Position numbers and translations under genes: made by a program. From Mucilaginibacter sp. MD40 (GTDB lineage: Bacteria; Bacteroidota; Bacteroidia; Sphingobacteriales; Sphingobacteriaceae): a stretch of DNA of 64,000 nt. Every line of letters starts with the position of its first letter. Positions within the stretch are counted from its first letter, which is position 1. Below, in pieces: positions 3,779-54,461 of the stretch. Where the stretch lies: assembly GCF_002288635.1 (NCBI RefSeq), contig NZ_NRSW01000001.1, positions 4,109,004 through 4,173,003 of the forward strand, written 5' to 3'. Under the pieces are notes generated by a model. The model worked only from the letters and a program-made list of their open reading frames with translations. It ran no database searches and had not been told where the DNA came from.

Positions 3779-6670
3779 TTAGTAAATGATGGTCAGTCCG
3801 CCGCCGAAACCATACTGGTTGTCATAACTTGCGGAAACAGCAAAGTATTTCGTAAGAATATAACGCGTATCCACCTGGAATTCATTATCCGTATTGTACG
3901 ATGCCCCCATATATAACCTGGTAGAAAGCGGGATATCTTCGCGGCTGACCGTCAACCGAAATTGCCCTTTACTGCTGATCCTGGCATCGGTTTGCACAAA
4001 GAGCGGAAGAAGGTAACGCAGCCCGACTACGGCACTATTATCTCCCTTTCGGCTAAAGAGCCGTCCCTTTTCGGTTTGCTCAAAATTTCCGCCGACATAA
4101 GCTGCCAAATATTGATTGTTGTCCAGGTAGCGCTGAAAGCGGGGATCAATTTCATACCGCCCGTCATAGCTGAACCTGTAATTGGCATTGAACTCATACC
4201 GAGTATTGGATATAAAAACAGAACCTACACTTGTTTGTGAATGAAAAGCCGCCATTCCCCAAGTGTACCATTGGCGGTCATCTTTTAATAAAGGATTGTT
4301 TTTTTGATATGGTGCGACCTGCGGATTGCTTGGAGCATCCTCATACCGTACGACCCTTGCCATTCCGGACATCATATGGTATAAGGTATGGCAATGGAAA
4401 AACCAGTCATGCGCTTCATCGGCTAAAAACTCGATTGTTTTTACCTGCATGGGTTCGATGCTGACCGTGTGCTTTAAAGGCGCAGAATCGCCTTTTGCGT
4501 TTAATACCCTGAAAAAATGGCCATGTAAGTGCATAGGATGCTCCATCATGGTCGTATTATGTAAAACGAAACGGACAATTTCGCCTTTTTTAATCAGCAG
4601 TTTATCGGCTTCTGATAACGCTTTATTGTTAATCAGCCAGGTATAACGGATCATGCTTCCCGTCAGGTAAAGGTGATAAGTTCTGACCGTGTGTGTGCCT
4701 TCAATCGCCGTCGAACTATTGGCCTGAAGCATATCGTACGTTAGTATTTTGCCTTCACCGCCTAATCCCAGCAACATGGAACCTCCGGGCCCCATTTTCG
4801 TGCCCCTACCGTCATCTGTCATATTCATTCTCCCCATGCCACCCATATCCATATTGCCCATATCTTTTTGCTGGTCAGCCATATCAGGATTCATTCCCTT
4901 CATGGACATTTTTTTTGATTTGCTGCCGCTCATTTTCATACTGGAATCGCCTTTCATGTCCATTCCCGCCATTTTCATGTCTCCTTTATCCGGTACAGGT
5001 TTATTTTCTTTCCCATCCATTTTCATCCCGCCCATATCCATGCCATCCATTTTCATTTTACCCGTACTTTTGCTGAATTCCAAACCATCGTTCTTCACTT
5101 TCGAGCTGGGCACTGCATTCATGGGCATATTCATCTGGCCCATCATCCGGTTAAAAGTATGGGTCAGTTTATAATAGGGGACGGGGGGAATGTCTTTAGC
5201 TTTGACCTCGGCACCTGAACCCAGCCAAGCCGACACTTTCCCGGATACATCCTGATAGGTCGCCCGGAATTCATATTTGCCTTTTAAGGGTATTTTGACG
5301 AGAACATCATAAGTTTCTGCTGTGCCAATCAGGATCTTGTCAACTGTTACCGGCTTTACTTCCAGGCCATCTGCCGCGATTACCGTCATTTGACTTCCGG
5401 CGTAGTTTAACCAAAAATAGCTTGATGATGAACCATTAATGATTCGCAGTTTTACTGTCTGCCCCGGCTTAAATTTCGATAGTTGCTGATCCGTATAACC
5501 GTTGACCAAAAAACGGTCATATTTAACATCCGCCAGGTCCATGGCCGGCATCCGCCTCCAGTCCAGCTTTAATTTATCGCCCAAATAGCCTTTTGAAATA
5601 GCTCCGCCATAACTGAGCACGCTTCCCTTTTGTATGGAAAACCAGTCTGTACCACGCTTTAGCATCCGCTGCACCTCTTTCGGTTTATAATCGGTCCAGT
5701 CAGAAAAAAGCATCACTTGCTCCGGATAGTCATTTTTCTTGATCTGCGGGTTGATTACAATTGATCCATAAAGCCCCGACTGTTCATCCAGTTCGGTATG
5801 GGAGTGATACCAGAACGTTCCGGTTTGCCTCAGCGGAATGATAAATAGGTGAGTTGAATCAGGCAGGATAGGCACGGTAGTCAGATAGGGCACGCCATCG
5901 TACTGATTGGGTACCAGAACACCATGCCAGTGGATGGATGTTTCGGTATTCATCCTGTTATGAACTTTTATATATGCCGTGTCGCCCTCAGTGAACGTAA
6001 GCGTAGGGCCCGGTATATGGCCGTTGATCGCCATCGCTTTTACCGGTTTGCCCGTATAATTCGCTACGGTATCCGTTATATAGAGATTATAGGTTACCCG
6101 TTTGCCCGCATGTATAAAATGATCATTAAGCGTTGAGGACGTGCTGGCAATGGTGTCTTTCCCGCTTTTCGCCATTCCGCTCATATTCATCCCGGGCATC
6201 ATACCTTCCTTGTTCATATCCATTTTCATCCCGCCCTGCTTTTGCATGTCCATAGGTTTCGTGCCCGTATCCGGCATTTTCATTCCGGGCATAGCATCCT
6301 TTTTTCCATTCATATCCATTCCCTGCATCTTCCCCTTGTCCATTTTCATTCCTGGCATGGCCGAATTGCCCTTTTTTTTCATCGGCATTTTTTTAACAGC
6401 CTTGCCTTTCATTTTCATTCCGCTCATTCCCGAAGCAGCTGTAGCGGGCATTCCCTGTTTGGTTCCCTCTTTTATAACCATGGGTGAGGTTTTCTTTTGG
6501 TTTAAATGGTCAGGTGAAGTTGCTTTTTTATTTTTAACCAAAGGTTTCTTCGTGGCGGGCATTTTCATTGGCATGGTGGTATCGCCCATTTTCATTTCTT
6601 TCTGCTGGCCATAAGCTGAAAGGCCCCATCCGAGCAGCATGATCATTATTATGGTGATGATGTTTTTCAT
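3779..6670 (-). CDS. Met-rich multicopper oxidase (CopA/PcoA-type) with C-terminal CopB-like barrel region
   Basis: From the ATG at 6670 the protein is 963 aa. An in-frame start at 6715 lies inside the regulator upstream and precedes a good signal peptide (MKNIITIIMIMLLGWG), so 6670 is preferred. A first Met/Lys-rich stretch (roughly residues 25-180, MPGMKM-type repeats) precedes the oxidase. Copper ligands are clear: HWHG, WYHSHTE, HPMHLHG and HCHTLYHMMSGM. A second Met-rich insert (GGMKMDG, DMGGMG) lies between cupredoxin domains. The last 150 or so residues resemble CopB: repeated beta-strands with a terminal aromatic, outer-membrane-barrel-like. It probably oxidises Cu(I) in the periplasm. 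PcoA/CopA and PcoB/CopB are usually separate proteins, so the fused tail is notable. Confidence 0.9.
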   Translation of the reverse strand: MKNIITIIMIMLLGWGLSAYGQQKEMKMGDTTMPMKMPATKKPLVKNKKATSPDHLNQKKTSPMVIKEGTKQGMPATAASGMSGMKMKGKAVKKMPMKKKGNSAMPGMKMDKGKMQGMDMNGKKDAMPGMKMPDTGTKPMDMQKQGGMKMDMNKEGMMPGMNMSGMAKSGKDTIASTSSTLNDHFIHAGKRVTYNLYITDTVANYTGKPVKAMAINGHIPGPTLTFTEGDTAYIKVHNRMNTETSIHWHGVLVPNQYDGVPYLTTVPILPDSTHLFIIPLRQTGTFWYHSHTELDEQSGLYGSIVINPQIKKNDYPEQVMLFSDWTDYKPKEVQRMLKRGTDWFSIQKGSVLSYGGAISKGYLGDKLKLDWRRMPAMDLADVKYDRFLVNGYTDQQLSKFKPGQTVKLRIINGSSSSYFWLNYAGSQMTVIAADGLEVKPVTVDKILIGTAETYDVLVKIPLKGKYEFRATYQDVSGKVSAWLGSGAEVKAKDIPPVPYYKLTHTFNRMMGQMNMPMNAVPSSKVKNDGLEFSKSTGKMKMDGMDMGGMKMDGKENKPVPDKGDMKMAGMDMKGDSSMKMSGSKSKKMSMKGMNPDMADQQKDMGNMDMGGMGRMNMTDDGRGTKMGPGGSMLLGLGGEGKILTYDMLQANSSTAIEGTHTVRTYHLYLTGSMIRYTWLINNKALSEADKLLIKKGEIVRFVLHNTTMMEHPMHLHGHFFRVLNAKGDSAPLKHTVSIEPMQVKTIEFLADEAHDWFFHCHTLYHMMSGMARVVRYEDAPSNPQVAPYQKNNPLLKDDRQWYTWGMAAFHSQTSVGSVFISNTRYEFNANYRFSYDGRYEIDPRFQRYLDNNQYLAAYVGGNFEQTEKGRLFSRKGDNSAVVGLRYLLPLFVQTDARISSKGQFRLTVSREDIPLSTRLYMGASYNTDNEFQVDTRYILTKYFAVSASYDNQYGFGGGLTIIY

Positions 6671-6677
6671 AGTTGAT

Positions 6678-7241
6678 TTATATTTTATCCAGCGGCCTCC
6701 TGCCATTTTTATCAATCAGTTTATATTGACTTGGGGTGAAACCGGTCACACTCTTAAATTGATTAGTCAGATGGGCGTTGCTGCTATATCCCATAGCATA
6801 CGCGATCTCATTAACATTCAATTCACCATACTGAAGGAACTCCTTTACCTTTTCTATCTTCTGCTGTATGATGAATTTTTCGATGGTCATATCCTCGTGA
6901 TCGGAGAATATTCGGCTGAGATAAGTATAATCCTTTTGCAGGTACTCGGCCACCAGGCTGCTAAGGGTCTGACGAAGGTCCGTTAGGTCCGAATGATGAA
7001 TTAACTGAATCACCGTTGCTTTGATCTGTTCTACAAGCCGGTCACGTTCTTTATCGATAATTTCAAATCCCAGTATTTTTAAAGAGGAAGAAACTTCCTG
7101 CAACTGTTCCGGGGTTGGTTCAGGATGAAATTGAACAGTGCCGAGCGTGATATCAGAGACGAGAAAATTATGGTTATCTATCTGTTGTTTCACAACCATA
7201 ATGCAACGGTCGCAAACCATATTTTTTATATGAAGGATCAT
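6678..7241 (-). CDS. AraC-family regulator with N-terminal CxxC metal-site-like domain
   Basis: The 187-aa protein has an N-terminal segment resembling a heavy-metal-associated domain (KNMVCDRCIMVV, C10 and C13). The C-terminal third is an AraC helix-turn-helix with the signature NEIAYAMGYSSNAHLTNQFK and a FTPSQYK ending. It is shorter than classic AraC proteins because it lacks the cupin. The arrangement suggests a Cu(I)-sensing transcription activator. Its gene lies directly upstream of the multicopper oxidase (8 bp between its stop and the 6670 start). The paired direct repeats upstream of copA are a plausible binding site. Metal sensing is inferred and not demonstrated here. Confidence 0.85.
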   Translation of the reverse strand: MILHIKNMVCDRCIMVVKQQIDNHNFLVSDITLGTVQFHPEPTPEQLQEVSSSLKILGFEIIDKERDRLVEQIKATVIQLIHHSDLTDLRQTLSSLVAEYLQKDYTYLSRIFSDHEDMTIEKFIIQQKIEKVKEFLQYGELNVNEIAYAMGYSSNAHLTNQFKSVTGFTPSQYKLIDKNGRRPLDKI

Positions 7242-7304
7242 AAGTAAATTTTAAGCTGTTGATTAATAAAAGAGCAATCCGTCCGCAGGTTGCGGCAGCT
7301 TAAA

Positions 7305-7736
7305 TCAGATAAGGAAAGAATTATTTAAAATGTATAAAAATGGTTTTGAAACACCAGGCGGTCCTTTAGCTATAGGCCATTTGAATTGATCTGTGCCTAC
7401 CTGGATAGCAAAATCCTCGTAATATGCAAGCCGATGAAGTGGAGGTTGGTGTGCCTCTAACTGGAACTCTGACGATGCGGCAATATTTTCCTTGATCACC
7501 GATAAGTTCTGCTGGTTGCAGCAAGAACAATGTTGACTTTTTATTTGATAAGCGGAATCTTCCGAAGACTCGTTACAGCAATGATCGTCGTCACAAGAAT
7601 CTGTTTTAGACAAAGCGGACCCATAGTTAACATGGCCGGCTTCGGCATCAGTACAACAATGAAAAAAGCAGGCTGATACCCCTGATGTTAACATCAGGTA
7701 TAAGGCCGCCAAAATCAATGCACTAAACTTTTTCAT
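7305..7736 (-). CDS. Secreted Cys-rich small protein (HYC_CC_PP-like)
   Basis: The 143-aa protein has an N-terminal signal sequence (MKKFSALILAALYLMLTSGV). Cysteine pairs follow: FFHCC, DDHCC and HCSCC, then a C-terminal GPPG segment. This layout resembles the small exported Bacteroidota family nicknamed HYC_CC_PP, often found near copper or cation-efflux genes. It is upstream of the AraC regulator and multicopper oxidase, on the same strand. Periplasmic metal binding through the CC and HC motifs is an inference. The protein at 12165-12605 looks like a diverged relative. Confidence 0.65.
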   Translation of the reverse strand: MKKFSALILAALYLMLTSGVSACFFHCCTDAEAGHVNYGSALSKTDSCDDDHCCNESSEDSAYQIKSQHCSCCNQQNLSVIKENIAASSEFQLEAHQPPLHRLAYYEDFAIQVGTDQFKWPIAKGPPGVSKPFLYILNNSFLI

Positions 7737-7794
7737 TCATTATTACTACATAAAAAAGTTACAATTGTTCTTGAGTATATATTTTTCCTTAAAA

Positions 7795-7825
7795 TTAAAA
7801 TCCTGCTGACATCGCAGCAGGATTT
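7795..7825 (-). terminator. Intrinsic terminator after the CopZ-like gene
   Basis: An 11-bp perfect stem pairs 7798-7808 with 7815-7825 around a 6-nt loop. On the minus strand it is followed by a T-rich run (TTTTAATTTT). It begins 15 nt past the stop codon of the 70-aa HMA protein, so it should end the copA-copZ transcript and separate it from the Cys-rich/araC/oxidase unit. Confidence 0.85.
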
Positions 7826-7840
7826 CTGTCTATAAATTTG

Positions 7841-8053
7841 CTAATCAATTCTTTGTGCAAAATAGCCTTTTGCCGTCACGCTTTCGATGATCTGTTCGGC
7901 AGTCAAACCCTCTGCCTGTACGGTAAGCACCTTGTCGCGGTTTTTCGTATCTACCTCCCATTTATCTATGCCCTTTAAATTGTCTAATGACGGGGTTACA
8001 GCTGCTATGCAGCCACCACAGTTGATATTGGTTTTGAATTTGAAAGTTTCCAT
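7841..8053 (-). CDS. CopZ-like heavy-metal-associated domain protein
   Basis: The 70-aa protein is a single HMA domain. The metal-binding loop is NINCGGCIAAV near residues 10-20, where the usual MxCxxC is NxCxxC. It would act as a cytosolic Cu(I) chaperone delivering to the P-type ATPase. The gene is 15 bp downstream of copA and is closed by a strong terminator, so the two form a compact unit. Length and fold order fit the CopZ/Atx1 family. Confidence 0.88.
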   Translation of the reverse strand: METFKFKTNINCGGCIAAVTPSLDNLKGIDKWEVDTKNRDKVLTVQAEGLTAEQIIESVTAKGYFAQRID

Positions 8054-47133: not shown

Positions 47134-47709
47134 ATGATTAAAGCAACAAGCAAGGAAAAATCTTTGGTCGTTCGATTACTGACACAATCTTTCATAGACA
47201 ACCAAAGTGTAAATTATATCATACAGCAAGATGATTATAAAATAAAACGCGTTCGTGCGCTTATGGAATATTCTTTTGAAATGTGTTTAAAGTTTGGAGA
47301 CATTTGGATAACTGAACAAGAAAATGGCTGCGCTTTAGTTTTATACCCGCATTTAAAGAAATTCTCTCTTTTAGCGATTTGGTTAGATGTTAAACTAATC
47401 TTCCAGGCTATTGGCATCGCTGACATTTTCAAAGCGCTGAAACGTGAAAGCCTGATCAAAAAGGTCCAGCCAAAAGAGCCCATGGCTTATTTGTGGTTTA
47501 TTGGCGTTGATCCAAGGGCACAGCATGCGGGGCAAGGGAGCCTGCTTTTAGATGATATTATCGAATCGGCAACAAAAAACGGTCTGCCTTTATTTCTGGA
47601 AACGTCCACAACTAGCAATCTTGCCTGGTATAAAAAATTCGCTTTTGAGATTTATGACCAATTGGATTTAGGTTACACGCTGTATTTTCTTAAGCGAACA
47701 ATCCAATAA
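47134..47709 (+). CDS. GNAT-family N-acetyltransferase
   Basis: The 191-aa protein has the GNAT acetyl-CoA site motif A as IGVDPRAQHAGQGSLLLDDI near residues 125-145, preceded by LWF and followed by LETSTTSNLAWYKKFAF. Substrate unknown. Between the precursor unit and the LuxR gene it may acetylate the peptide or protect the host, both inferences. The next gene starts 7 bp after its stop. Confidence 0.88.
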   Translation: MIKATSKEKSLVVRLLTQSFIDNQSVNYIIQQDDYKIKRVRALMEYSFEMCLKFGDIWITEQENGCALVLYPHLKKFSLLAIWLDVKLIFQAIGIADIFKALKRESLIKKVQPKEPMAYLWFIGVDPRAQHAGQGSLLLDDIIESATKNGLPLFLETSTTSNLAWYKKFAFEIYDQLDLGYTLYFLKRTIQ

Positions 47710-47716
47710 TATTGAC

Positions 47717-48631
47717 ATGCTGGTATTCGGGACGCAAATTCATATTGTTACTTTCCTATTTATCGTCCTGGAAACGGGCATGTTCTTTTTTCAACTGTTT
47801 TATTATCTCTTCCGTCCGCAGGACGAGCAGCGCAAATGGTACCTGATCTTGCTTTTCCTCATGCTGTTTTATAATATCACAGGCGGATTGTTTCCTGACC
47901 CTAACATCGGTTTTCCGGTAAGCGTACAACTCATGATAGCTTACGGCAGTGGGTTCCTGATGGCCTCTTATTTCCCTTTTTACTTTTACAAGGCCTTTGC
48001 ATTGCCTTCCCTTCGCTGGCATGCTTATTTTGGAGTGCCCCTGTTTCTTTTTTTGCCTTATATTATTTTTTTTATCGTTGACTTCGCCATAAAAGGCCAT
48101 CTTAACCTAAAATATGGGATGATCGTACCTTTCATTTATGCCATGGTTCTGCTATATGTCATGTTTTGGGCGATCAGGCGTAAATACAATCAGGAACGCA
48201 ACGCGCATCAATACCTGGAAGAAATAGCCATGTATTGCGCCATAACACCATGGGCATCGTTATCGTTTTTTGGCCTGGTCGAAAGCAGTCAGTTGGTAGA
48301 AGTCGTGTGTACCAATACAGGAATAATCGGTATAACCATCCTGGTCATCTGGCGTTCTATTAAAAATGCCCGTCTGGAATATACTCGTTTGTTAGAACTG
48401 GTGAGGGTTGGTGAGGGCACACAGGTTTTTGAGGAAATGTGCTGCTATTATAAATTGACCAGCCGGGAGATCGAGATTGTGCTGCTCGTTCGTCAGGGAC
48501 TAACCTACAAAGAGATTTCCACCAAGCTCTTCATCGCAGGCAAAACAGTTGAAAACCATATCCAACACATCTTCGAAAAGACAGAGGCTAATAACAAGAT
48601 AGCGCTGCTGCATAAACTATTTAATGCCTGA
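47717..48631 (+). CDS. Membrane-bound LuxR-type regulator
   Basis: The 304-aa protein has an N-terminal part with about six or seven transmembrane spans (residues 1-210) and a C-terminal LuxR HTH: YKLTSREIEIVLLVRQGLTY, KEISTKLFIAGKTVENHIQH, IFEKTEANNK. A membrane-anchored HTH protein of this type could sense an extracellular signal such as the peptide product. It is coupled to the GNAT gene. Confidence 0.88.
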   Translation: MLVFGTQIHIVTFLFIVLETGMFFFQLFYYLFRPQDEQRKWYLILLFLMLFYNITGGLFPDPNIGFPVSVQLMIAYGSGFLMASYFPFYFYKAFALPSLRWHAYFGVPLFLFLPYIIFFIVDFAIKGHLNLKYGMIVPFIYAMVLLYVMFWAIRRKYNQERNAHQYLEEIAMYCAITPWASLSFFGLVESSQLVEVVCTNTGIIGITILVIWRSIKNARLEYTRLLELVRVGEGTQVFEEMCCYYKLTSREIEIVLLVRQGLTYKEISTKLFIAGKTVENHIQHIFEKTEANNKIALLHKLFNA

Positions 48632-49968: not shown

Positions 49969-50910
49969 ATGGCTAATTTATTAACAGCGAAAGAGCTCAA
50001 AGAGCAGGCCTCCCTGGTTGACCTGCTAAGCCGTTTGGGCTACCAGCCCGTTCCCAAACGCGGGCGGGAAAAAATGTACATCAGCATGCTCAGGGACAAC
50101 GATACCCAGCCATCTTTTAGTGTAAATGACGACCTGGGCGTATGGTTTGACCATGGCGCAGGGAAAGGCGGCAACATCATTGATTTCGGCCTGGCCTACT
50201 GGAAAAACCTGGGGTTTAACGAGGTCGTTAAAAAGATACAGCAGGTTTGTTTACTGGAACAGGTTCAGCATAGATTGCCACGTCCACGAAAACCAATGAA
50301 AGTTCATCATGTCGTCGAACGGGTAAAACCTCTAGGTGTTCATCCGGCCATAACAGATTACCTGAAAAGCCGTGGTGTTTACGATGTAGCAAAATTCTAC
50401 CTGAGCGAAGTATATTACTACATAGAAGATGATAGCGATGTCCGCAAGCATTATTTCGCAGCGGGCTGGCTCAACGAAAATAACGCATGGGAAGTGCGGA
50501 ACCGCTACTTTAAAGGGTGCATGGGCCACAAAGGAATAACTATTATACCCGGTCACCCCAAAAAGGCAGCTGTTTTTGAAGGTTTTATAGATTTCCTAAG
50601 CTGGCGTTTTGAAAACCCGGACGCTGACCACAGCATTATTGTGCTTAACACCTTAACTTTATTACAGCAAGGGATCGTCAGGGCAAAAGCCTTTTCATCG
50701 CTTGATATCTATTTTGACCGGGATAAGGCGGGTAAAGCGGCCAGCCGTGATTTTATCAAAGCACTGCCTTATGCGACTGACCGTTCGGCGATTTATGAGG
50801 GCTTTAATGATTATAACGATAAGATCAAGGCACAGCTAAAAGTGTCTGAAATGCCGCAAAGAACTCAAGTAGATTTCTTTGCAAACGTTAGAGTTCCTTT
50901 TGAAAGGTAA
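49969..50910 (+). CDS. CHC2/Toprim-type primase-like protein
   Basis: The 313-aa protein resembles the mobile-element primases that head mob regions. The N-terminal CHC2-like part has KMYISMLRDNDTQPSFSV and WFDHGAGKGGNIIDF. The C-terminal Toprim-like part has AAVFEGFIDFLSW and the acidic pair in IYFDRDKAGKAASRDFI. It may prime the transferred strand. No zinc Cys/His set is clear. The truncated methylase gene follows 5 bp later. Confidence 0.85.
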   Translation: MANLLTAKELKEQASLVDLLSRLGYQPVPKRGREKMYISMLRDNDTQPSFSVNDDLGVWFDHGAGKGGNIIDFGLAYWKNLGFNEVVKKIQQVCLLEQVQHRLPRPRKPMKVHHVVERVKPLGVHPAITDYLKSRGVYDVAKFYLSEVYYYIEDDSDVRKHYFAAGWLNENNAWEVRNRYFKGCMGHKGITIIPGHPKKAAVFEGFIDFLSWRFENPDADHSIIVLNTLTLLQQGIVRAKAFSSLDIYFDRDKAGKAASRDFIKALPYATDRSAIYEGFNDYNDKIKAQLKVSEMPQRTQVDFFANVRVPFER

Positions 50911-50915
50911 GTTTC

Positions 50916-51167
50916 ATGAGTTTAACGCTTGACCAATACCTGAATACTGTAATTGAGGGCGATTGCCTGGAGGTCATGGGTTGGTTTCCCGATAATTCCA
51001 TCGATCTGATATTATGTCACCTACCATATGGAACAACTATTAATCCCTGGAATGTCTCGATTAATTTTGATCGTCTATGGCAACGTTATCGGCGCATCAT
51101 CAAATCTAATGATCTTATCGCAGCATTGACCGGGGCAGAGCTACCCAATCTACGGTGTCATGGGTGA
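50916..51167 (+). pseudogene. Truncated, mutated DNA adenine methylase (N4/N6 class)
   Basis: The 83-aa frame is the N-terminal part of a type II-style DNA methyltransferase: VIEGDCLEVMGWFPDNSIDL (motif X-like), then ILCHLPYGTT. The catalytic motif should be DLPYG or DPPY. Here His replaces Asp (GAC to CAC). It then ends early, lacking the rest of the SAM-binding and target regions. It lies directly before the oriT-like hairpins and is non-functional. Confidence 0.75.
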
Positions 51168-51286: not shown

Positions 51287-51697
51287 ATGGAACGCAAAAA
51301 GAAATTGATGGGCAGGCCACAATTGGCGGCAGGTAAGCGAACTAAGTTCATCAATGTCAGGTTCACCGAAGGCGAGTTCAGGGAGGTAACTGCACTGGAA
51401 AAAGAGTTGGGTGTCTCCAAAACCGAATTGATCCGTATGCGGGTCCTGTCTAATGCGAAAAAAGCGGTAATAAATGCCAGGGAATTGATCAAAAATATGG
51501 ACGGGGTCGGCGCCGAGATGGGTCGAATCGGCAACAATATCAATCAATTAGCCAAGCATGCCAATACTTTGAAACTAAAAGGCCAGCTATCACCACAGGT
51601 CATCCAAAACTTTAACGACCTGTTTGAAGAATATATCCAAATCCAGCAATCCCTGGAAGCCGCACTTCGAAAAATCATCAGAGCTATGGCAATTTGA
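51287..51697 (+). CDS. mobC: MobC-type relaxosome accessory protein
   Basis: ATG 51287 gives 136 aa (an earlier in-frame ATG at 51215 lies in the hairpin region). A basic N-terminus (MERKKKLMGRPQLAAGKR) is followed by a ribbon-helix-helix-like part and the MobC signature MGRIGNNINQLAKHANTLK near residues 90-110. MobC opens DNA at oriT and helps the relaxase. It lies between the oriT candidate and the relaxase. Confidence 0.9.
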   Translation: MERKKKLMGRPQLAAGKRTKFINVRFTEGEFREVTALEKELGVSKTELIRMRVLSNAKKAVINARELIKNMDGVGAEMGRIGNNINQLAKHANTLKLKGQLSPQVIQNFNDLFEEYIQIQQSLEAALRKIIRAMAI

Positions 51698-51706
51698 TGG
51701 GACGGT

Positions 51707-52000
51707 GATATAGGGGTAGCGTGTTATAGTGTTATAAAGAACTAAAGATATCGGGTTATGAGGTTACCGTGTTAAGCCGGTATAAAGTTATTCAGTTAGA
51801 ACGGTACATCGTTATCTTGTTCAGGTGGTGTTATAATGTTACCGTGATATCATGTTACGTCGTTATAATGTTACAACGTTAGCGCGTTATCCGGATCGGT
51901 CGATCCTTTGGTATTGCGTTATACAGCCCGGCTGATATCGCGTTATCCAGTTCCCCGGTAATAGCGTTATACTGCTAGCCGTTCAGCCGTTACAGCGTTA
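51707..52000 (+). repeat. 8-bp-periodic GTTA array, 37 units
   Basis: From 51707 to 52000 a unit starting with G recurs every 8 bp: 15 units (51707-51819), a +3 slip, 19 units (51830-51974), a -1 slip, then 3 units (51981-51997). Position 1 is G in all 37 units. GTTA is exact in 20. Four are GATA, four GGTA, three GTTC, two GATC, and the other four are GAAC, GCCC, GTAA and GCTA. Bases 5-8 vary, with T common after GTTA. The spacer between mobC and the relaxase is filled by it. No known CRISPR, iteron or coding pattern fits an 8-bp period. Confidence 0.85.
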
Positions 52001-52015
52001 TAAATGCCCGCAGCC

Positions 52016-53008
52016 ATGATCGCTCATATTTTTAAAAAACCTTCCAGGGTATTTGCCGGCGTAAAATACAATACGAATAAAGTTGACCGGAATACCGGGG
52101 AGCTGATGCTGATCGCTAACTTCGGAATACTTCAGGCGCTAAACAACCCGCGGCCGCAGGACCTGGTCAACTACCTGCTCATGGTATCCGCGCAAAAAAA
52201 AGGCATTAAAAACACGCAGTTTCATGCAACGATCTCCGCCCGTGGCCGCAATTATAACAAGCAGGAATTAACAAAAGCTGCTGTAATGTGGTTAAAGGAA
52301 ATGAAATATGGCGATCAGCCTTATCTCATCGTCTTTCACAAAGATACGGATAACAATCACGTGCATATTGTGAGTTCGCGTGTCGGAAAGGATGGCAAAC
52401 AGGTAGACCGGGATTATGAACAGGTCAGAGCGGTCAGAAATATCAACAAGGTATTGGGCTACACTTTCGCCATGCAGTACCGCTTTAGTACCAAAGCACA
52501 GTTTTATCTCATCCTGGAGAACCAGGGTTATCTCGGCAGGGATTACGTCGAGGAAGAAAAATTACAGAAAAAGCTTAATGCCTTTATGCCTGATAAGGTA
52601 AGGATAGCCGAGATTCGAGACCTTTTCAATGACCTCAAGTCTGACCCGAACTTTGTGAAAATGATGCGGGTAAACTATCAGCTTGATCTTGTTTTTCATT
52701 CCTCCGAAGGTAAAAAGCCTTACGGTTATTCGGTCATAGATCATGCCACCAAACAGGTATTCAAAGGAAGCGAGATCCTCAACCTCAAGTACCTGCTTAA
52801 TGAAAACATCAAAACTGAAAATAATTACCAACCTCGAAGCATCGAACTGAATGATTATTTAGCCGAAAATGCGATCACTTATTATTCAGAATACGCGCCG
52901 GAGCCCGTGCATATAAGCCCTGTGATGATCGCCGACGATGTCGATGACCAGCAGGTACTGGGGATGAAACGCCGCCGGCAAAAGAAGGCCAGGACAAATA
53001 CCCGTTAA
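52016..53008 (+). CDS. MobA/VirD2-type relaxase
   Basis: ATG 52016 gives 330 aa (52004 is an alternative). The HUH-type nuclease core is clear: N-terminal AGVKYNTNK, then the three-His motif LIVFHKDTDNNHVHIVSSRV near residues 100-120. The protein nicks one strand at oriT and stays attached to its 5' end. Helical and basic C-terminal parts end in KRRRQKKAR. It follows the 8-bp array directly and precedes TraA by 78 bp. Confidence 0.93.
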   Translation: MIAHIFKKPSRVFAGVKYNTNKVDRNTGELMLIANFGILQALNNPRPQDLVNYLLMVSAQKKGIKNTQFHATISARGRNYNKQELTKAAVMWLKEMKYGDQPYLIVFHKDTDNNHVHIVSSRVGKDGKQVDRDYEQVRAVRNINKVLGYTFAMQYRFSTKAQFYLILENQGYLGRDYVEEEKLQKKLNAFMPDKVRIAEIRDLFNDLKSDPNFVKMMRVNYQLDLVFHSSEGKKPYGYSVIDHATKQVFKGSEILNLKYLLNENIKTENNYQPRSIELNDYLAENAITYYSEYAPEPVHISPVMIADDVDDQQVLGMKRRRQKKARTNTR

Positions 53009-53086: not shown

Positions 53087-53713
53087 ATGATCTGTTTATA
53101 TGGCAACCAAAAAGGCGGCGTCGGAAAAAGTACGCTCACCGTTTTATCCGCGAATTACCTGAGCCTGGCTAAAGATTGGCCCGTGACCATCATTGACATG
53201 GATTACCAGCAATCCATTTCACAGAAATTTGAAAAGGCCAAGGTGCTTGAAAATGATGAGCCCTATGATGTATTACCGGCAACCCTGGAAAACTTCCCGA
53301 TGCTGGCCAATGTCCTGACCAAAAATAAGAAGGATGTTGTACTTATCGACCTGCCGGGTAAATTGGATGATGACGGGTTGATCCCCGTCTTTAGATACGC
53401 CGACCTGGTGATTTGTCCTTTTGCCTATGATGAATTCACTTTTGAATCGACGGTATTGTTTACGGTGGTTCTTGAAAAGGTAAACCCAAACGTGCAGGTG
53501 TTTTTTATCCCTAATCGGATCAAAGCCAATGTAAAATTTGAGATCATGAGTGAGGTCAACGAACAGCTGTCAAAATTTGGCACCATCACCGCAGCCATCC
53601 CGGACCGCATCGACTTTCAACGGATCACCACCTTTCAAACGCCCTTATCGCTTTACGGCGTGATCACCCCGGTATTCGAACAAATATTTGCCGACCGCTT
53701 ATGGAAAAAATGA
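53087..53713 (+). CDS. traA: ParA-family ATPase, conjugation protein TraA
   Basis: The 208-aa protein has the deviant Walker A motif GNQKGGVGKSTLTV near residues 6-19, the Asp of Walker A' in IIDMDYQQS and the Walker B DLPGK. In Bacteroides-type elements this ParA-like gene heads the tra operon. It may position the relaxosome or the element. Its stop overlaps the next start (ATGA). Confidence 0.92.
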   Translation: MICLYGNQKGGVGKSTLTVLSANYLSLAKDWPVTIIDMDYQQSISQKFEKAKVLENDEPYDVLPATLENFPMLANVLTKNKKDVVLIDLPGKLDDDGLIPVFRYADLVICPFAYDEFTFESTVLFTVVLEKVNPNVQVFFIPNRIKANVKFEIMSEVNEQLSKFGTITAAIPDRIDFQRITTFQTPLSLYGVITPVFEQIFADRLWKK

Positions 53714-54060
53714 AAACCTTAGCCGACCAGCTGCGCGAGCAAATGAGCAAGCCTGCCGACAAGTTGACAAAAGAAGTCAGGATTACCGGGTCAAAGAAAT
53801 CAAAAACGACGGCCAAGAAAGCGGCAAAAACAACAGAGGTCGCCATTCTCACCGCTTTGATCGGCTATGATAACAGCGGCAACAAAAGCATGGTGCACGC
53901 CAGGTTCGATAAGCAGACGGTAGATGTCATGAATAAATTCAAAATGGCTACGGGTATCGAGGTCACGAAGTTCGTCTCGTTTGCGGTTAAACATTTTCTG
54001 GAAACCTATCCTGAACTCAAAACGATTATCAAAGAATACATTCAAAATACTGACTTATGA
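53710..54060 (+). CDS. TraB-like protein, copy 1
   Basis: From ATG 53710 (overlapping the TraA stop) the protein is 116 aa (an in-frame start at 53701 adds three residues). A basic linker precedes a C-terminal domain MVHARFDKQTVDVMNKFKMA, VTKFVSFAVKHFLETYPELK, the ribbon-helix-helix-like fold of DUF3408/TraB proteins. It is paralogous to the next gene. It probably binds DNA with TraA. Confidence 0.82.
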   Translation: MKTLADQLREQMSKPADKLTKEVRITGSKKSKTTAKKAAKTTEVAILTALIGYDNSGNKSMVHARFDKQTVDVMNKFKMATGIEVTKFVSFAVKHFLETYPELKTIIKEYIQNTDL

Positions 54061-54461
54061 ATTTAACAAAAGTCTCTGCTTTACTGGTTGGCGGCTTACT
54101 GACCCGCTATGCGTTCCGCAGGTGGCAAGACCATTTGAACCGGACTCAAAAGACCGTTGGGTCAACCTGCTTTATGTTGAATAAGTCGGTGGCACCTGTG
54201 CAATCAATCCATAAAAGTGCTAATGATCAGGTGCCTGATCGCGGCATCAAAAAAGCACTTTTTGCCTATGACACCAGCGATCACAAAACGCTGATGCATG
54301 TAAGGTTCGACCGGCAAACGGTCGATACGCTTAACAAGTTCAAACTGGCTACCGGTGTGGACATGTCCAAGTTTGTGGCTTTTTCCGTCAGGCATCTTTT
54401 GGATACCAATCCCGATTTTAAAAACATCATTAATAACTATTTAAACAGAACCCAATTATGA
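54057..54461 (+). CDS. TraB-like protein, copy 2
   Basis: The 134-aa protein has the same C-terminal domain as the previous gene: LMHVRFDRQTVDTLNKFKLA, MSKFVAFSVRHLLDTNPDFK. The N-terminal half is different and longer, with a basic RYAFRRWQDHLNRTQK. Start and stop overlap both neighbours (ATGA), so translation is coupled. The two copies suggest a duplicated partitioning or DNA-binding function. Confidence 0.82.
   Translation: MNLTKVSALLVGGLLTRYAFRRWQDHLNRTQKTVGSTCFMLNKSVAPVQSIHKSANDQVPDRGIKKALFAYDTSDHKTLMHVRFDRQTVDTLNKFKLATGVDMSKFVAFSVRHLLDTNPDFKNIINNYLNRTQL

Follow-up and report, generated by a model that had tools for sequence, protein, structure and literature searches.

A conserved 8-bp-period array at the mob locus of Bacteroidota transfer elements is a candidate centromere-like lattice for a ParA-linked, predicted ribbon-helix-helix protein

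The gap between the mobC and relaxase genes of a transfer element in Mucilaginibacter sp. MD40 is filled by an array of short degenerate units with an 8-bp period, which probably (we put this at roughly 70%) acts as a centromere-like lattice, placed at the transfer locus, for a ribbon-helix-helix (RHH)-like protein encoded next to parA (positions 53701 to 54060); both the binding and the role are inferred. The array is conserved among related elements, its pitch stays constant while its motif changes, the motif covaries with the RHH gene, and the synteny with parA is kept. Positions refer to a stretch of 64,000 nucleotides (nt) that was analyzed as a whole (termed the window herein), and positions in other elements carry the handle of the respective locus. 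The window lies within a 4.28-Mb contig, and the element is therefore presumably integrated in the chromosome. In Bacteroidota, such ICEs and their relatives in Bacteroidales are major vehicles for the transfer of genes. To our knowledge, the first genes of their transfer operon, which encode ParA and the next small protein, have no assigned function, and the array offers the two proteins a specific DNA target and a job that can be tested.

The array is located on the forward strand (51699 to 52002) and comprises about 37 to 39 units of the form GNTA(T)NNN, mostly GTTA in the window, as delimited by autocorrelation, shuffles, and a cyclic hidden Markov model (HMM). In the 306-bp spacer (51698 to 52003), 153 positions were identical at lag 8, compared to 77.4 ± 7.8 in dinucleotide-preserving shuffles, and none of 2,000 shuffles scored as high; the preliminary description had proposed this lag-8 comparison for G and GTTA, and the excess is far past chance. 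Identity was also raised at lags 16, 24, and 32 (0.46 to 0.48), with the remaining lags from 2 to 33 at 0.16 to 0.29. GTTA occurs 20 times in the spacer (mean of 4.2 and maximum of 10 in 2,000 shuffles), 10 pairs of GTTA are 8 bp apart (shuffle maximum of 2), and a scan of the whole 64 kb in steps of 10 ranked the spacer as the top 8-bp-periodic segment of 306 bp. An 8-state cyclic HMM placed 39 unit starts from 51699 to 51997 (log-likelihood ratio [LLR], 125 to 126), each of them a G, just as the preliminary description had G recurring at regular 8-bp steps. Exact GTTA was found in 20 of the 39 units, the number given before, and 13, 4, and 2 units deviate by one, two, and three mismatches, respectively. 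The model also agrees on the positions of the two phase slips (51827 to 51830, +3; 51974 to 51981, 7 bp for 8). Bases 5 to 8 had been said to drift; this is true of bases 6 to 8, which are loose, but not of base 5, which is T in 21 of 39 units.

Two other kinds of element were considered and rejected. A CRISPR is ruled out, as had been stated from the start, since the units are degenerate and only 8 bp long rather than long and nearly identical. An RNA element was dismissed because folding of the spacer is ordinary (z of −1.04) and no Rfam family reached its gathering score between 51500 and 52200. A three-unit GTTA pattern with at most one mismatch matched 27 and 27 times in the element's own genome, versus 24 and 29 times in the reversed control, so that the motif alone constitutes no chromosome-wide signal.

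The genes around the array identify its setting. A primase-like gene (49969 to 50910) and a short open reading frame (ORF; 50916 to 51167) are followed on the forward strand by the gene for a MobC/NikA-like relaxosome accessory protein (51287 to 51697; Pfam NikA-like, 5.2e−11; MobC, 5e−8; both above cut-off), by the array, and, directly 3′ of it, by the gene for a MOBP relaxase resembling Bacteroides MobB (52004 to 53008, with a start at 52004 or 52016; Pfam Relaxase, 6.9e−17; NCBIfam Bacteroid_MobB, 89.8 bits, below its cut-off of 400). By eye, the short ORF between the primase gene and mobC resembles the N terminus of a DNA methyltransferase and is apparently truncated. Farther downstream on the same strand lies the gene for a small ParA-family ATPase of 208 amino acids (aa) (53087 to 53713; Pfam CbiA, 4.3e−10; AAA_31, 1.1e−8; both above cut-off) with a Walker A motif of the deviant form, GNQKGGVGKST, and an NCBIfam ParA_partition match of 65 bits, below its cut-off of 180. 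In the same operon, parA is directly upstream of the gene for RHH-like protein 1 (119 aa; 53701 to 54060, forward strand), which was assigned by alignment, AF2 model, structure matches, and motif covariation. It is followed by a second paralogue of the same HMM family (134 aa; 54057 to 54461, forward strand), found in only some relatives. Two DUF4134-like genes, a TraF-like gene, and the gene for the TraG ATPase lie 3′ of the two small paralogues.

Conservation of the array was examined in elements that were chosen by their relaxase or RHH protein and never by the array. Among 30 relaxase loci from related genomes, 23 of 28 testable mobC-relaxase spacers had a lag-8 z of >4, often with few or no GTTA. 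In a second set of 80 loci from Mucilaginibacter, Pedobacter, Sphingobacterium, Parapedobacter, and metagenome-assembled genomes, period 8 was outstanding, with 782 windows of S > 0.42, compared to 165 for period 12, the best period unrelated to 8. With 84 further stretches (80 chosen among the matches listed, plus 4), the total was 165 sequences. Relaxase, ParA, and RHH protein were all present in 162 of them, one of the three missing from the stretch in L097, L107, and L112, and 131 elements were distinct, meaning not identical at the ends of the RHH protein and relaxase, so that near-duplicates stay in the set. A member of the RHH-like family was found in 78 of 81 relaxase-selected sequences; its gene is located next to parA.

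Arrays were present in 127 of the 131 distinct elements: 106 were of type A, with the 8-bp period, 21 were of type B, with palindromic units and a 15-bp period, and 4 had neither. One shuffle per element gave LLRs of at most 22.0 for period 8 and at most 45.5 for period 15, under the thresholds used. One element, L065, was classed as "none" by the first rule (LLR of 46 for period 8 and 49 for period 15) and was counted as type A in the final tally. The array is thus conserved in related elements, as had been surmised, and the pitch is constant among them while the variable bases drift. Conservation does not extend to GTTAT, which the preliminary description named for spacers of related elements, for the motif differs between elements. 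Of the four elements without either array, L077, L078, and L096 show by eye a small number of related units, short and mixed in L078 and L096, within gaps that measure about 60 to 100 bp, and L120 has only an AT-rich stretch. The interval between relaxase and parA in L078 (9044 to 9656) and L096 (9005 to 9747) holds an ORF that by eye looks like a PAPS reductase or DndC-type protein. L039 has two arrays of similar motif (7113 to 7296 and 7665 to 8000), about 370 bp apart, as if one array had been interrupted by an insertion. A decayed minisatellite without function would accord with the report of part of the array as a 16-bp tandem repeat, but the units drift at an unchanged pitch, the motif changes along with the RHH gene, and arrays recur in nearly all elements and in other families; we therefore give this explanation almost no credence.

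The location of the array is less fixed than its pitch. Type A arrays (median length of 296 bp; range, 98 to 518 bp; 106 elements) occupy the mobC-relaxase gap in 63 elements and lie upstream of mobC in the other 43; among the 80 loci, the latter position was seen in many elements in which mobC touches the relaxase gene. All 21 type B arrays (median length, 247 bp) are in the gap, which holds an array of either type in 84 of 127 elements. The tie to the mobC-relaxase gap that had been noted for the window is therefore correct there but does not hold for these 43 type A elements or for nine DUF3408 elements described below, in which the array is beside parA. The distance from array to relaxase ranges from 0 to about 2 kb in the 127 elements (2.6 kb upstream were fitted), and because of this variation, an earlier suggestion that the array is a spacing ruler for the relaxosome appears unlikely. 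In L080, the interval between array and mobC contains an ORF (6593 to 7603) that by eye looks like a cytosine methyltransferase.

At constant pitch, the 8-bp form occurs with GTTA, GATA/GATC, and GATAT motifs, and the 15-bp form has palindromic units, TATCnnGATA or GAACnnGTTC. In 14 type B loci, palindromes of the kinds TATCnnGATA, TAACnnGTTA, or GAACnnGTTC are about 5 bp apart. The spacings seen in type B are 7, 8, 15, 22, 23, and 30 bp, suggesting an underlying step near 7.5 bp, and the putative type B half-site, GNT(A/C), is similar to the one in type A.

An 8-bp pitch had been regarded as odd. It is instead a spacing expected for adjacent RHH dimers, which a 7- to 8-bp pitch suits (ParG-parH, omega, and MetJ), and the small protein encoded after ParA is predicted to have an RHH fold. 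It has a conserved N-terminal tail (MxxIKSLADQLR), a variable linker, and a strand-helix-helix domain (alignment and AF2 model), with the strand at S63 to F69 and helices at residues 71 to 84 and 88 to 102 in the AF2 model. L7, A8, D9, and R12 of the tail are nearly invariant in the alignment, and the tail is a low-confidence region of the model. Sequence searches of Pfam, NCBIfam, PHROGs, and PDB revealed no known family; RHH_3 matched 3 of 65 family members weakly (best E value, 0.016). Foldseek returned 13 weak matches, of which the first three were Arc, MatP, and NikA and none had an E value up to 0.001. Structure matches found with VIA included Arc, CopG, KacTA, and AtaTR at Z scores of 4.3 to 4.9; the best ten entries, headed by StnY, had Z scores of 4.3 to 5.0 over 42 to 61 residues, a range described by the tool as common. 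The 11 highest entries include Arc, CopG, KacTA, AtaTR, and SO_1444-1445, which we take to be RHH proteins. Since such Z scores are common, the fold assignment rests on the order of the elements and the consistency of the structure list.

We then asked which protein tracks the motif. From 62 elements with an array LLR of ≥40, 3 near-duplicates and 3 lacking genes were removed, and in the resulting 56 elements the Mantel correlation between motif and protein distances was highest for the RHH protein (r of 0.49), followed by ParA (0.43), a 94-aa protein (0.41), TraF (0.38), MobC and relaxase (0.32 each), and TraG (0.26). The RHH correlation stayed significant with each other protein controlled, whereas MobC, relaxase, and ParA, those tested, lost significance with the RHH protein controlled (MobC partial r of −0.12). 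A scan of 1,525 columns in 7 proteins singled out RHH residue S63. Phylogenetic regression on 126 elements with 733 columns of 4 proteins (L174, with a broken RHH alignment, was left out) again gave S63 as the best column for base 4 of the unit (Akaike information criterion [AIC] gain of 31.0) and RHH residue A67 for base 2 (21.5), both within the predicted strand. The best gains for MobC were 11.4 at base 4 and 5.5 at base 2; relaxase N117 (18.6) and G41 (16.0) also scored for base 4, and MobC L78 and ParA P100 were the best columns for the nearly constant base 1.

The regression was repeated on proteins with H66 because the motif register is ambiguous in EKLLIR-type proteins (Sphingobacterium and many Pedobacter). 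In this H66 set (n = 84), RHH M77 was first, ParA L107 second, and S63 fourth for base 4, and ParA A74 preceded RHH A67 for base 2. Within its type A part (n = 64; 687 columns), RHH columns filled the first six ranks for base 4, with S63 outside them, and the first four ranks for base 2. Among the type B members alone (n = 20), ParA L107 led for base 4 and relaxase S162 for base 2, and the RHH protein was not singled out. MobC F137 led for base 1 and MobC L31 for base 3 in the H66 set and in its type A part.

Residue 63, whose numbering differs between the two alignments for the EKLLIR-type group, was also followed on its own. S63 goes with A at base 4 (0.65 in type A and 0.68 in type B), and T63 is tied to more C in both geometries, with A, C, and T at 0.34, 0.39, and 0.24 in type A (n = 12) and at 0.11, 0.66, and 0.18 in type B (n = 8); A is still the commonest base in 4 of the 12 type A elements with T63 (L040, L141, L144, and L150). 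The base 4 C fraction of T63 or A63 clades was above that of the sister in 11 of 12 comparisons and below it in 1, comparisons that are not independent because several share the sister L045. Parsimony counted eight changes, and a hold-out test of 7 versus 29 gave a P value of 1.4e−6 with kinship ignored. Taken together, the covariation results make the RHH gene the best-supported reader of the array, and the exact residues with which its product might read the DNA are tentative; MobC might also contribute.

The main competitor for the role of reader is MobC, itself an RHH protein that matches the NikA-like family. NikA-type proteins bind oriT, and the array could accordingly be an enlarged oriT accessory region of the relaxosome; the fact that 63 of 106 type A elements and all type B elements have it between mobC and the relaxase gene, and the lead of MobC columns at the nearly constant bases 1 and 3 of the H66 set, would fit. 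MobC distances do not, however, predict motif distances once the RHH protein is controlled, its gains at bases 2 and 4 stay well short of those of the RHH protein, and the array lies upstream of mobC or abuts parA in the elements named above, which makes MobC an improbable principal ligand. The array does look protein bound at regular intervals, as the preliminary description had suggested, the motif covarying with the gene of the putative binding protein.

We propose that each 8-bp unit would be one binding step for a dimer of the RHH-like protein, whose two-stranded ribbon would fit into the major groove at the GNTA core, and that side-by-side packing of neighboring dimers could coat about 300 bp; the sister subfamily would use the same half-site as palindromes every 15 bp (about 7 plus 8). 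The conserved N-terminal tail may in that case contact the ParA ATPase, as the tails of type Ib partition proteins do. ParA could in turn position the element or bring the relaxosome to the secretion channel, as in the VirC1-VirC2-overdrive system, with segregation of the excised circle as a close alternative or second use of the lattice. Because the lattice is at the mob locus and the genes are in the transfer operon, ParA-driven positioning or relaxosome delivery is the most likely job.

Several described systems share parts of this arrangement. parH has a pitch of 8 bp. Type Ib partition systems combine ParA with a small RHH protein bearing a flexible tail with an arginine finger, and their centromeres consist of direct and inverted repeats (PMC5016525, which also cites work on the omega heptads); in parH, the boxes are degenerate tetramers separated by AT-rich spacers (PMC7308502). 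Like ParF-ParG-parH of TP228 and delta-omega-parS of pSM19035, the window encodes a small ParA and a predicted RHH partner with a putatively flexible N-terminal tail, and it has a long array of short degenerate boxes; coating by an RHH protein is a type Ib feature that we infer here. Unlike in type Ib, the array lies in a conjugation operon beside mobC and the relaxase gene and not upstream of a par operon, the RHH-like protein is not recognizable by sequence as ParG or omega, and the family also has a 15-bp palindromic geometry. VirC1 binds overdrive, promotes assembly of the relaxosome, and recruits the substrate to the channel, as stated in PMC4285021, PMC4949242, and PMC8406263. The window resembles VirC1-VirC2-overdrive in its ParA-like ATPase, predicted RHH protein, and DNA site, that of the VirC system being near the oriT-like border and serving transfer; overdrive, by contrast, is a short enhancer and the window site an array of 37 units, and the VirC1 Pfam model (PF07015) is not among the matches of the window ParA at an E value of 0.001. 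The ParA of relative L203 (6533 to 7105) matched VirC1 with an E value of 0.013, below the cut-off. An ATPase like ParA with a partner is also found in StbA-StbB of R388, a pair that balances plasmid positioning and conjugation. StbA of R388 and its repeats are of another kind, and the overdrive equivalent of the Ri plasmid has an 8-bp repeat. MetJ places RHH dimers on tandem 8-bp met boxes; in contrast to the window system, it is a metabolic repressor, its boxes are few, and it works without a ParA.

Besides delivery of the relaxosome, the array could be a pure partition site of the parS or parH kind that stabilizes the excised circle and is unrelated to transfer. This reading is kept in play by two complete Bacteroidales plasmids, pBFY46 and pBACSA01, for which the PLSDB gene tables, themselves incomplete, annotate no other ParA, and ParA, RHH protein, and repeat array correspond to the type Ib layout. 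Against it, the genes sit inside the transfer operon, from the relaxase to the TraG-side genes, the array is within about 2 kb of the relaxase gene in 127 elements within the stretch fitted, and a second ParA module is also encoded on three plasmids of Sphingobacteriaceae that share this transfer operon. The place of the system at the mob locus, inside the transfer operon, together with these second modules leads us to favor a role in transfer and to consider partition alone unlikely, if a serious contender. An operator, on which RHH dimers would autoregulate the relaxase-parA-RHH operon, would suit the 84 of 127 elements whose array is in the mobC-relaxase gap, and type Ib binding proteins double as repressors (PMC5016525). 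About 300 bp and 37 units nevertheless seem beyond what an operator would need, and hundreds of bases separate array and relaxase gene in many elements, with other ORFs filling the interval in L080; a mainly regulatory function is thus rather improbable, and the transfer-linked lattice remains our preferred reading.

Arrays also occur on plasmids and in a second type of element. Eight plasmids were taken from 52 records with a relaxase match. Three of them (L203, L204, and L205) carry clear 8-bp arrays; these are B. fragilis pBFY46, with the array in its own mobC-relaxase gap, and plasmids of M. robiniae and Mucilaginibacter sp. The Pedobacter plasmid L207 had a weaker period of 8 (LLR of 35 versus a shuffle maximum of 21). 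Adhaeribacter and Pontibacter plasmids (L206 and L209) carry 7-bp arrays (LLRs of 92 and 161, compared to at most 15 and 11, respectively, over 10 shuffles), pBACSA01 (L208) gave a tentative period-15 signal in AT-rich sequence, and L210 had no periodic array signal. In the mobC-relaxase gap of the Pontibacter plasmid, from 4645 onward, there are perfect 14-bp repeats with a 7-bp subperiod, much less diverged than the 8-bp arrays. On pBACSA01, 22-bp repeats from 3397 onward, just 3′ of the rep gene, are probably replication iterons, distinct from the mob-locus arrays. The second ParA modules (L203, 126 to 1619; L205, 173 to 1665; L207, 402 to 1866) comprise a divergent ParA, a protein of 86 to 87 aa, and an HTH gene and adjoin GNAT and HTH regulators; the small protein of L203, the one tested, has a weak RHH-antitoxin match. 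Similar-looking ORFs are seen by eye 5′ of mobC in the window (47134 to 48631).

Eleven stretches around DUF3408 genes were drawn from the whole phylum; the elements resemble, we presume, those of the CTnDOT type. Nine of the stretches contain parA and a relaxase gene, and in all nine an 8-bp array separates parA from the divergent mob genes (LLRs of 28 to 119 versus a shuffle maximum of 24, 20 shuffles each); the two without these genes had no raised 8-bp score, the HMM being fitted on the other nine only. On pBFY46, DUF3408 follows ParA as annotated, its own DUF3408 match being below cut-off, and hhalign of the RHH-like protein against DUF3408 gave a probability of 3.4%, too low to support homology. 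It is possible, though we hold this only tentatively, that Bacteroidota conjugative elements share a "transfer centromere," a 7-, 8-, or 15-bp lattice read by an RHH protein (of this family and probably the DUF3408 proteins) that is paired with the ParA of the transfer operon. Lattice and protein would form a coevolving code in which dimer packing sets the pitch and a few ribbon and helix residues set the core bases; ParA would both locate the excised element and pass the relaxosome on to the channel, and different motif classes would prevent interference between co-resident elements.

The array had been suggested to be conserved yet undescribed, and searches of open-licence papers yielded no description of such arrays in Bacteroidota elements; the accessible parts of PMC10954446, PMC5729914, PMC10865816, and PMC10782964 do not mention them. 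The elements also provide about a hundred natural pairs of protein and DNA in which the pitch is fixed and the core bases change, a data set on how RHH ribbons may read DNA, and the array may possibly be an incompatibility system between elements. The genome of the window contains a second element (L119; G000:C1:3798500-3806500) with its own relaxase, ParA, RHH protein, and type A array of somewhat different motif (GtT...tt), and the two elements are a natural pair for cross-talk testing.
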